Positions 10,389 through 41,685 of a stretch of 64,000 nt of DNA are shown here, in pieces. The translations under genes and the position numbers were made by a program. The stretch's first letter is position 1, and every line of letters starts with the position of its first letter. A model generated the notes under the pieces. That model saw nothing but the letters and a program-made list of their open reading frames with translations, ran no database searches and was not told the origin of the DNA. This stretch comes from an uncultured Altererythrobacter sp. (lineage in GTDB: Bacteria > Pseudomonadota > Alphaproteobacteria > Sphingomonadales > Sphingomonadaceae), in the NCBI GenBank assembly GCA_947492235.1, contig CANLLZ010000002.1, positions 744,001 through 808,000 on the forward strand, in the 5' to 3' direction.

Positions 10389-10420
10389 TCGCGGTAACCT
10401 CGCGCAAAAGTAAGGGCAGC

Positions 10421-10491
10421 CCTTCGACAAGCTCAGGGCGAACGGGTTAAAGAGCCACCTCTCCTATCCGTTCGTGCTGAGCCTGTCGAAG
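10421..10491. repeat. REP-like inverted repeat between purD and xseA
   Basis: Two arms in opposite orientation: ccttcgacaagctcag followed by ggcgaacgg at 10421-10445, and ccgttcgtgctgagcc followed by tgtcgaag at 10469-10491, with a few mismatches and a 23-bp spacer. This is the intergenic repeat I associate with sphingomonads and related alphaproteobacteria, possibly mobilised in trans by REP-associated transposases. It lies in the divergent spacer between purD and xseA. When translated it gives spurious N-terminal tails such as LSLSKH. Confidence 0.85.
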
Positions 10492-10530
10492 CACTGTTCT
10501 TGTTTTTCCCATGGTGCCAAACTCGCAAGC

Positions 10531-14933: not shown

Positions 14934-14986
14934 GAAAAATGCGTCTTTTAAGAAATCGCTGCGCGCTTTCTTGCGCTTGGGTTCCG

Positions 14987-15056
14987 GCCCACTCCCCCGC
15001 CCAACCACCCGATCATTCTCCGATACGCTATCGGGTGGTTGGGCGGGGGAGTGGGC
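14987..15056. repeat. Perfect 27-bp inverted repeat in the rpmB 3' region
   Basis: Arms at 14987-15013 and 15030-15056 are exact reverse complements, separated by 16 bp. The stem could extend by three more pairs (one a G-U pair). The arms are C-rich/G-rich with a skewed core (ccactcccccgcccaacc). It lies between two converging genes, inside the presumed 3' untranslated part of rpmB RNA. There is no T-run next to it. Confidence 0.9.
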
Positions 15057-15067
15057 TGGTGCCGCAA

Positions 15068-18728: not shown

Positions 18729-18847
18729 CCCTTCGCCCTGAGCCGGTGCTGCTGCGCAAGAGCTACGCATCCGAAGGGCTGCTCTTTTATCTTTGAAAAC
18801 TGCGCTAGAAGAAAGAGCAGTGCTTCGACAAGCTCAGCACGAACGGG
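18729..18847. repeat. REP-like palindromic repeat upstream of nadC
   Basis: A well-kept arm at 18822-18847 (gcttcgacaagctcagcacg then aacgggg) faces a degenerate partner around 18729-18743 (cccttcgccctgagc). Between them ctgctctttt (near 18779) and agaaagagcag (ending 18820) form an extra inverted pair. It is the same family as the repeat at 10421-10491. Confidence 0.75.
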
Positions 18848-18883
18848 GTTTCGTGGTCGTGTCTTGATCTTCCGAAAATGATC

Positions 18884-18979
18884 GGAGCCGAAAGGCTCCG
18901 CAAGGGCGACCGCCCGCCCGCAGGTGCTGGGCCTGAAAGGTCGATAAGGCACCGAGGACGCCCGCGCGGATGCGCGGGC
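18884..18979 (+). repeat. Multi-hairpin element, copy A
   Basis: Four consecutive hairpins on the plus strand: GGAGCC-GAAA-GGCTCC (18884-18899), linker gcaa, GGGC-GACC-GCCC (18904-18915), a weak GGCC/GGTC stem (18930-18942), and GCCCGCGC-GGAT-GCGCGGGC (18960-18979). A second copy with the same order, loops and linkers but changed stem bases lies at 41447-41540. It sits between the nadC and LytTR-regulator genes, both on the other strand. I do not recognise a named RNA family. Confidence 0.7.
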
Positions 18980-18989
18980 ATGAAACAAA

Positions 18990-19787
18990 CTAATGCACGA
19001 ACCGCGCCACCACATCCCGATACGACCGCGAGACCTTCACCTCTGCGCCTGAGTCCAGCACCAGAAAGCACTCGCCATTGGTATGCGGCTTAACCTGCCG
19101 CACCTGGTTCAGGTTGACGATCTTCGAGCGGTGCACGCGCTGGAACTTGCGCGGGTCGAGCCTGCGTTCCAGATCCTTCATCGTCTCGCGCAGGACCAGC
19201 GAATTGTCTCCGGTGGAGATGATCATGTAGTCGCCCGCTGCTTCGATATGCTCGATCGAATCCACTTCGACGCGGAAGATCTGGCCCCGATCCTTCACAT
19301 TGATCAGTTTCTCGAACCGGTCGGCGCTTTCCCCTTCGCCCTCTTCCAGTTCTTCCGCCGCATCGGGGGCAACCTCGGCCAGCACGGTTTTGAGCTTTTC
19401 GGCCTCCTCGCTGCTCTTCTTCTCGGCCAGCCTGATGCGCACCCGCTCCAGAGTGTCGGCCAGCTTGTCCTCGTCCACCGGCTTCATCAGATAATTGACC
19501 GCGTTGGCCTCGAACGCACGGATTGCATGCTCCTGATAGGCGGTGACGAAGACGAAAAGCGGCGGTTCGATTTCCATCACGCCCTTCACCACGGAAAAGC
19601 CATCAAAGCCGGGCATTTGGATGTCGAGGAAGACGAGGTCTGGTTTCTCCGTCTTGATAGCGCGGATCGCCTCGCGGCCATTGGCGCAGGTTTCGATGAT
19701 TTCGACATCGTCGAATTTCTGCAGCCGCAATTGCAGCCCCTGAATGGCGAGCTTTTCATCGTCGACGAGGATCGTGCGTATGGCCAT
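18990..19787 (-). CDS. LytTR-family response regulator
   Basis: 265 residues. Receiver domain at 1-120 with D9/D10, phosphoacceptor D55 (LVFLDIQMPG), T82 and K102 (YLMKPV); a charged linker rich in E at 125-155; then a LytTR DNA-binding domain at about 160-262 (VEVDSIEHIEAAGDYMIIST, RRLDPRKFQRVHRSKIVNL). The partner sensor lies 3 bp upstream on the same strand. The target genes are not evident here. Confidence 0.93.
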   Translation of the reverse strand: MAIRTILVDDEKLAIQGLQLRLQKFDDVEIIETCANGREAIRAIKTEKPDLVFLDIQMPGFDGFSVVKGVMEIEPPLFVFVTAYQEHAIRAFEANAVNYLMKPVDEDKLADTLERVRIRLAEKKSSEEAEKLKTVLAEVAPDAAEELEEGEGESADRFEKLINVKDRGQIFRVEVDSIEHIEAAGDYMIISTGDNSLVLRETMKDLERRLDPRKFQRVHRSKIVNLNQVRQVKPHTNGECFLVLDSGAEVKVSRSYRDVVARFVH

Positions 19788-39708: not shown

Positions 39709-41298
39709 ATGGCTGACGTTACGATCCGGCGGGCGCTCCTCTCGGTGTCCGACAAGACCGGTCTGGCCGACCTTGCGGGCAAGCTGGCGAAAGCGGGTGT
39801 GGAGCTGATCTCCACCGGTGGCACGGCGAAAATGCTGCGCGACGCGGGCTTGTACGTGCGGGACATTTCCGAGATTACCGATTTTCCCGAAATGATGGAT
39901 GGCCGGGTCAAGACGCTGCATCCGATGGTCCATGGCGGACTGCTCGCGGTGCGCGATGATGCCGATCACGCTGCCGCGATGGAGGCGCACGGGATCGGCG
40001 CAATCGATCTGGTGGTGGTCAATCTCTACCCGTTCGAGGCCACCGTGATGCGGGGCGCGGAGCGGGACGAGATTATCGAGAATATCGATATTGGCGGGCC
40101 GAGTATGGTTCGCTCTGCGGCTAAAAATCACCGCTATGTCACGATTGTGACCGATCCCGCCGACTACGGCGCTCTGGGTGAGGAACTGGCCGCTCATGAC
40201 GGCGCGACCACGATGGATTTTCGCAAACGCATGGCGGCGAAGGCCTTCGGCGCGACGGCGGCGTACGATTCGATGATCAGCCAGTGGTTTGCCTTCGCCG
40301 ATCAAGGTCAGATGTTCCCCGATATGCTGGCGATCAATGGGCGTGCGCCGACCGAATTGCGCTATGGCGAGAACCCGCACCAGAAGGCGGCGCTTTACAC
40401 CCCTGTCGGCCCGCACGCGCAGGGGATCGCGCAGGCCGAGCAGGTGCAGGGCAAGGAGCTGAGCTACAACAATCTGGCCGATGCGGACGCTGCGCTGGAA
40501 TTGTGTGCCGAATTTTCCAGCGGCGATCCCGCTGTCGTGATCGTCAAACACGCCAATCCGTGCGGTGTGGCGCAGGCCCCGACGCTGCTGGCCGCCTGGG
40601 AAGGCGCCCTTGCATGCGACAGCGTCTCGGCTTTTGGCGGCATCGTGGCGGTTAACAGGCCCTTGGATGGCCCCACCGCCGAGGCCATTGCCAAGATCTT
40701 CACCGAAGTGGTCGTCGCCCCCGGCGCGGACGATGCGGCGCGCGCGGTCTTCGCCAAGAAGAAGAATCTGCGTCTGTTGATCACCGGCGAAATGCCCGAC
40801 CCGCGCCGTGGGGGATTGGCAATCAAGCCGATCACCGGCGGATTGCTGGTCCAGTCGCGCGACAATGGCGCGATTTCGGAAAGCGATCTGAAAGTCGTCA
40901 CCGAGCGCGAGCCGACGCCGCAGGAACTCAAAGACTGCCTGTTTGCATGGACCGTGGCGCGGCACGTCAAATCCAATGCGATTGTCTATGCCAAGGACGG
41001 CGCGACGGCGGGCATCGGCGCAGGCCAGATGAACCGCCGCGATTCCAGTCGTATCGCGGCGATGAAGGCTGCCGAAGCCGCCGAGAAATACGAATGGGAC
41101 CAGCCGCGCACCGTGGGGAGCGCGGTTGCGTCGGACGCATTCTTCCCCTTCGCCGACGGCCTACTCGCCGCCGCCGAAGCCGGTGCAACCGCGATCATCC
41201 AGCCGGGCGGCTCGATCCGCGACGACGAAGTGATCGCTGCCGCCAACGAGCATGGCCTCGCAATGGTGTTCACCGGAATGCGGCATTTCCGGCATTAG
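39709..41298 (+). CDS. purH: Bifunctional AICAR formyltransferase/IMP cyclohydrolase
   Basis: 529 residues. Last two steps of IMP synthesis. N-terminal methylglyoxal-synthase-like cyclohydrolase domain ([52 protein letters not shown]) and C-terminal transformylase ([38 protein letters not shown]). Complete motifs, normal length. The same cluster order rpe - heparinase-like - purH is compact here with 46 bp before purH. Confidence 0.98.
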
Positions 41299-41685
41299 TC
41301 TGTGTTTCGCACGCCCATCCGGGCGCGCGTCCTCGGTGCAGTTTCGATGCGTGCCGCATCGAGCACCTGCGGGGCGGCCGCGTGGCCTTGCGGTCCGCTG
41401 GTCGCGGACCGACCCATGCTAGACCGCTCGCGAGCTGGATTGGTTCGGGGCCGAGAGGCCCCGTAAGGCCGACTGGCCGCCCGCAGCGACGCGACCTTCA
41501 GGTCGCATGAGCGAGGAAGCAAGGGGTGCGGATGCACCCCGCCCGCAGGGTCCCCCAAAAAAATGTAACCCAAACACGGTTCACCGCGAATGACTGTTCA
41601 TCCAGCGTGGCATTCACCTGAATGCAAGCGACCGGACACTACATCCGGTGGCACACGATCAACAGATGAAACGAAAGACTTCGCC
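41299..41685. other. 387-bp structured spacer after purH
   Basis: No gene seen. It is packed with inverted repeats: a nested hairpin GGTGC-agtt-TCGATGC-gtgcc-GCATCGA-GCACC (41335-41367), GGCC-gcgt-GGCC (41376-41387), CGGTCCGC-tggtc-GCGGACCG (41391-41411), the four-hairpin element at 41447-41540, a C-run and seven A (41552-41563), and ACCGGA-cactaca-TCCGGT (41631-41649) before a small membrane-peptide gene. The purH terminator is presumably among them, though no clear T-run exists on the plus strand. Confidence 0.6.
41447..41540 (+). repeat. Multi-hairpin element, copy B
   Basis: Hairpins GGGGCC-GAGA-GGCCCC (41447-41462), linker gtaa, GGCC-GACT-GGCC (41467-41478), linker gcccgcagcgac, GCGACC-TTCA-GGTCGC (41491-41506), and GGGGTGC-GGAT-GCACCCC (41523-41540). 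Order, GNRA, GACY and GGAT loops and the gcccgcag linker match copy A at 18884-18979, while paired stem positions differ in both members. It lies in the purH downstream spacer, on the same strand as the flanking genes. Confidence 0.7.

Follow-up and report, generated by a model that had tools for sequence, protein, structure and literature searches.

Four-hairpin repeats near stop codons form a dispersed family in Erythrobacter and its relatives

Two similar clusters of small hairpins occur in a 64,000-nucleotide (nt) stretch of DNA from an uncultured Altererythrobacter sp. (hereafter, the window), raising the question of what kind of element they belong to and how it reached its present positions. 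A sequence-only reading placed the copies at 18884–18979 (copy A) and 41447–41540 (copy B), described stems that change on both sides together and proposed a selected fold of RNA or single-stranded DNA, perhaps mobile or with its own transcript, outside any named family. The paired stem changes between the two copies are present in the sequence as described. Our analysis shows that the copies are part of a larger family with a characteristic geometry.

Copy A is a single arm of four hairpins. It matches both covariance models that we built, R1 from six arms (101.6 bits at 18898–18989) and R2 from 105 arms (94.8 bits), and it folds better than dinucleotide shuffles (z of about -3.7 as RNA and -3.4 as DNA). 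The position, hairpins and loops first reported for it hold, and its extent is corrected to 18883–18989, which leaves a gap of zero between its 3' end (18989) and the stop codon of a lytTR-type response regulator gene (18990). The features of this junction are as follows.

18883–18989, plus strand: arm A, a single arm with hairpins 1 to 4 and an A-rich tail, ATGAAACAAA, from R1 and R2 matches and folds
18883–18900, plus strand: hairpin 1, CGGAGCC-GAAA-GGCTCCG, from the sequence
18904–18915, plus strand: hairpin 2, GGGC-GACC-GCCC, 3' of a GCAA linker
18916–18923, plus strand: conserved joining segment GCCCGCAG, from alignments A3 and A4
18924–18952, plus strand: hairpin 3, with base GTGC/GCAC and a variable upper stem, from covariation in helices 2 and 3
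18953–18958, plus strand: conserved joining segment CGAGGA, from alignments A3 and A4
18959–18980, plus strand: hairpin 4, a stem enclosing the loop GGAT, from helix 4/5 counts
18990–18992, minus strand: stop codon of the lytTR-type response regulator gene (18990–19787), from the open reading frame (ORF) list and boundary listing

A second dispersed repeat, CTTCGACAAGCTCAGCACGAACGG, is seen in the window at 18820–18846, 10408–10446 and 10468–10501; it adjoins arm A and several other arms, and also occurs in the lytTR-nadC gap of other species. Elsewhere in the window, 14984–15059 holds an inverted repeat of 30 nt, 97% complementary, with a loop of 16 nt.

Copy B turned out to be half of a larger structure. 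Its position, hairpins and loops are as first described, with the extent adjusted to about 41446–41549, and a third arm on the minus strand, overlooked in the two-copy description, forms a head-to-head dimer with it. This third arm begins on the base directly after the purH stop codon (41296–41298). Both arms fold better than dinucleotide shuffles, with z of -4.5 (RNA) and -4.7 (DNA) for the left arm and about -3.4 (RNA) and -3.7 (DNA) for the right.

41299–41411, minus strand: arm B-left, four hairpins; R1 match of 73.3 bits at 41299–41393, hairpin 1 at 41391–41411
about 41446–41549, plus strand: arm B-right (copy B), an arm of a second subtype; R1 33.1 bits, R2 57.3 bits
41299–41549, both strands: head-to-head dimer of B-left and B-right, its modelled cores separated by the modal gap of 67 nt

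The source genome (2.97 Mb) carries about 30 such arms at E<0.01 with R2, so the resemblance between the copies is far above chance. A blastn search of the same genome with arm A likewise returned many matches, several of them as close inverted pairs. The covariance-model search of Sphingomonadales that the sequence-only reading had proposed as a check gave R2 matches (E<=1e-4) in 106 of the 401 genomes sampled, spread over 19 of the 85 genera and all in one family. An earlier set gave matches in 13 of 61 relatives and none outside the family. In a pattern scan of named genomes, nearly all matches fell in Erythrobacter, Porphyrobacter, Qipengyuania, Altererythrobacter or unclassified Sphingomonadales and Alphaproteobacteria bins; matches in Jiangella and Zipacnadia were taken as chance because R2 matched neither. 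Searching the window against Rfam release 15 gave two tRNAs only above the gathering score and no credible weak match over the elements, which rules out a known RNA family and bears out the initial view that no named family applies. A literature search, with subscription papers outside its scope, found no published description of the element. These results establish a real multicopy family of approximately 100-base four-hairpin repeats in Erythrobacter and relatives.

Selection on the four-hairpin fold, as first suggested from the two copies, is strongly supported. In alignment A5 (130 arms), 23 of 24 modelled pairs show double changes, and 93.2% of cells are paired versus 64.9% in shuffles; in alignment A7 (115 arms from named contigs and other genera, a set largely separate from A5), the values are 21 of 24, 94.9% and 68.5%. 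Because the arms were aligned to the model structure in both cases and related rows inflate the counts, the shuffle figures are not probabilities. Slid versions of the pairing leave 28–45% of cells paired. Hairpin 1 provides an unfitted test because it lies outside the covariance models: 65 of 80 arms have a perfect stem of at least 6 bp where it is expected, versus 7 of 80 shuffled upstream sequences. Two of the four pairs of hairpin 2 swap between GC and CG among arms, and the stem letters of hairpin 4 are almost free, with pairing kept at about 97% (helix 4/5 counts). Among unpaired segments, GCAA, GCCCGCAG, CGAGGA and the AACAAA tail are conserved. The sequence-only reading had named three outcomes that would speak against it (no further homologues, homologues lacking covariation, or a match to a known terminator or transposon end), and none of them occurred.

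Some arms depart from this plan. At L107, L109, L116 and the minus arm of L134, hairpin 1 is missing and a common alternative module ending GTCACGGCAGTCA takes its place. Other palindromic repeats are nested in arm hairpins, in hairpin 3 of the L119 plus arm and in the L133 minus arm, as if the element itself serves as a target.

The strand named at the outset is also the one whose loops and mismatches look selected. On this strand, distinct hairpin-1 loops are of the G...A form in 69 cases and of the T...C form in 3, hairpin 3 shows GCGNAGC in 70 distinct variants versus 4 for its complement, and mismatches in hairpin 3 comprise 89 G-A versus 6 C-U oppositions. GU pairs also outnumber AC oppositions, a weaker signal than the loops and G-A oppositions. 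G-A pairs and loops closed by G-A stabilise RNA and DNA folds alike, and single-stranded DNA is known to form very stable GNA triloops, of which GCGAAGC is one. The GNA triloops may therefore tilt the balance slightly towards single-stranded DNA as the folded molecule. The initial guess of an RNA or single-stranded DNA, perhaps mobile, fits this selected fold. If arm A produced a separate small RNA or antisense transcript from its plus strand, the selected loops of that strand and its stable fold would be accounted for; we consider this very improbable, as arms recur beside unrelated genes and no sigma-70-like promoter was found nearby.

Arms are not placed at random with respect to each other or to genes. 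Among 68 arm pairs less than 260 nt apart, 61 are in the minus-then-plus order, in which the hairpin-1 ends face each other and the hairpin-4 ends point outward, and the commonest gap between the modelled cores is 67 nt. The mates of a dimer are no more alike over the core than other arms of the same genome (63.5% versus 66.3% identity). The dimers are therefore not fresh inverted duplications, and it is the local hairpins that are conserved, not one long duplex; a single long inverted duplication forming a cruciform is rejected on the same evidence. Using a simple ORF caller, on which these distances rest, we found that 30% of A5 arms and 37% of A7 arms have a facing stop codon within 10 nt of their outer end; the corresponding figures are 3–4% for random intergenic positions and 0–1% for inner arm ends. 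The hairpin-4 end thus abuts stop codons about ten times above chance, and some of the remaining arms lie, by eye, 3' of terminator-like hairpins or tRNA 3' ends. The initial reading was right about the fold, the strand and the lack of a named family; the multicopy, dimeric and stop-codon-anchored nature of the element was missed.

The dimer geometry also bears on a different origin, a miniature inverted-repeat element (MITE) derived from a DNA transposon, in which the arms would be sub-terminal hairpins of the left and right ends and the transposase would be encoded elsewhere or lost. The fixed head-to-head arrangement with its modal 67-nt core gap, the two arm subtypes at the two ends and the similar terminal motif TTTGTTTTTCGC, present in both directions, are what such an element would show, and the family resembles bacterial MITEs (reviewed in PMC10969869) in being short, non-coding and dispersed, with inverted ends and strong folds. 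However, single arms such as arm A exist, mates are no more similar over the core than random arms, no parent transposon was found, and no transposase appeared in the recurrent flanking protein clusters examined. We therefore regard a MITE as improbable.

The main rival is a fixed regulatory RNA at gene 3' ends, that is, a termination, attenuation or mRNA-stability device selected gene by gene and dispersed by chance. Outer ends that often lie 0–10 nt behind stop codons, and also behind intrinsic terminators and tRNA ends, agree with it, as do a fold kept across many genera and the occupation of the same gene 3' ends, for example that of lytTR, in different genera. In Escherichia coli, repetitive extragenic palindromes (REPs) within 15 nt of a stop codon have been reported to affect translation (PMC12306157). 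However, relative to the gene at whose stop codon the arm ends, the strand with the selected loop features is the antisense one. At the two loci scanned for intrinsic terminators, the hairpins also lack a terminator-like U-tract on their 3' side apart from one weak match, over arm A hairpin 1 on the minus strand; the dimer at 41.3–41.55 kb gave none.

Occupancy of orthologous sites argues further against this rival: it varies erratically, and repeats of other families can take the place of the arm. The sequence-only reading had suggested comparing orthologous nadC spacers, and here presence is indeed variable: an arm that matches the model, its outer end at the stop codon, is present at 14 of 44 orthologous lytTR-nadC junctions, a distribution that needs 11 changes on the gene tree. 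In other species, the slot holds CGTC-type repeats, CTTCGACA..CTCAG repeats or a CCCGGGTCAAG repeat, and the two genes of G353 overlap and have no insert between them. The sister species G235 and G309 differ at this slot, which holds a four-hairpin element in one and a CGTC-type repeat in the other. The purH-msrA dimer is present only in the source genome, with decayed remains in G002 and nothing comparable seen in the other 13 genomes. This scattered occupancy appears to fit mobility; it could also stem from repeated loss or from recombination between species. Taken with the antisense strand, it leads us to judge a gene-by-gene 3'-end RNA unlikely.

Across the 44 genomes (L141–L155 and L256–L284), the lytTR-nadC slot holds different repeat families or nothing, as if they were interchangeable. 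A third arm type, ending GGCGCTTGAGGCCAAACAAA, lies beside lytTR at L144, L148, L266 and L269; it has the A-rich tail and position in common with the family and a different core sequence.

A partner enzyme was sought by protein domain and by genomic neighbourhood. Neither the Y1 transposase of REP systems (RAYT; Y1_Tnp, PF01797) nor a reverse transcriptase (RVT_1, PF00078) was found in G000 (the source genome), G001, G002, G008, G012, G017, G018, G019, G021 or G029, and the Y1 transposase was also absent from G004; RVT_1 is present only in G004 and G011 among element-bearing genomes. Element-rich genomes without a Y1 transposase rule out a RAYT-driven REP, and the lack of RVT_1 in most element-bearing genomes rules out a reverse-transcriptase-driven element. 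All-against-all comparison of flanking ORFs, with Pfam assignment of ten representatives, gave ordinary genes or no family and no recurrent mobiliser beside the copies; this comparison was crude, including spurious ORFs and covering only part of the clusters. Carriage by phages or plasmids was rejected, as blastn with arm A gave no match in a phage or plasmid collection.

The closest parallels are REPs and their mosaic assemblies (BIMEs). GTAG REPs and BIMEs, mobilised by RAYTs, are dispersed intergenic palindromes that form head-to-head dimers, many near gene 3' ends (PMC3733652, PMC2817692), and our family has the same features that broadly define REPs and BIMEs: many dispersed intergenic copies, head-to-head dimers and location near gene 3' ends. 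However, GTAG REPs consist of one palindrome of 20–40 nt, whereas an arm here spans about 100 nt and has four hairpins; no GTAG tag is seen, and element-rich genomes have no Y1 transposase. The CGTC REPs of Alphaproteobacteria also form head-to-head dimers near the 3' ends of flanking genes, with no dedicated transposase known, and have a single stem of 8–9 bp that starts with two A-T pairs and carries the tag on its 5' side (PMC3733652). Our family shares with them the bacterial class, dimers, 3'-end location and lack of a detected dedicated transposase, but, viewed from the gene side, its CGTCC sequence is found 3' of hairpin 4, and its stem letters are free; on the folded strand, hairpin 4 has GGACG 5' of a stem whose outer pairs are mostly C-G or G-C. 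Tag position and stem make-up thus exclude membership of the CGTC REPs (PMC3733652). The two kinds of repeat also occur separately at the same lytTR site. Rhizobium-specific intergenic mosaic elements (RIMEs) are mosaic palindromes of about 100 bp, found between genes in one alphaproteobacterial group; the likeness in size, intergenic palindromes and one-group confinement is by description only, and is a lead. With REP-like behaviour but a different tag, size and architecture, the family is best filed as a variant that is REP/BIME-like in behaviour and outside the GTAG and CGTC families.

We therefore favour, with a probability of about 0.7, a family-specific, non-autonomous interspersed palindromic element that behaves as a REP or BIME does, is moved in trans by a putative enzyme and is tolerated at gene 3' ends. 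This reading builds on what is observed: a family with a conserved fold, a preferred strand, a set dimer geometry, arms adjacent to stop codons, and presence or absence at an orthologous site. The basic unit would be the approximately 100-nt arm of four hairpins, and the usual unit a head-to-head dimer of approximately 250 nt with both outer ends formed by hairpin 4 and then the A-rich tail. The element would spread by transposition in trans, with the putative enzyme recognising the folded strand; such recognition would explain why paired letters co-vary while loops, linkers and joining segments stay. Copies may accumulate behind stop codons because, in compact genomes, an insert there would leave intact the gene upstream as well as the start signals of the one that follows, and a true target preference may add to this tolerance. 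A more specific version, in which the folded strand is probably single-stranded DNA, given the GNA loops and tandem G-A pairs, and a putative mobiliser distinct from both RAYTs and reverse transcriptases truly targets gene 3' ends, is possible but distinctly more tentative.

Alphaproteobacterial genomes have long posed the puzzle of dispersed palindromes for which no transposase is known, CGTC REPs being one example. The family described here is a more informative case of such repeats: each arm has four hairpins, the dimers keep a fixed geometry, the folded strand is clear and covariation is strong, so that recognition rules can be read from sequence. The lytTR-nadC site, with unrelated repeat families in one slot among related species, is a concrete setting in which to study the arrival of these repeats and to distinguish targeting of gene 3' ends from mere tolerance.
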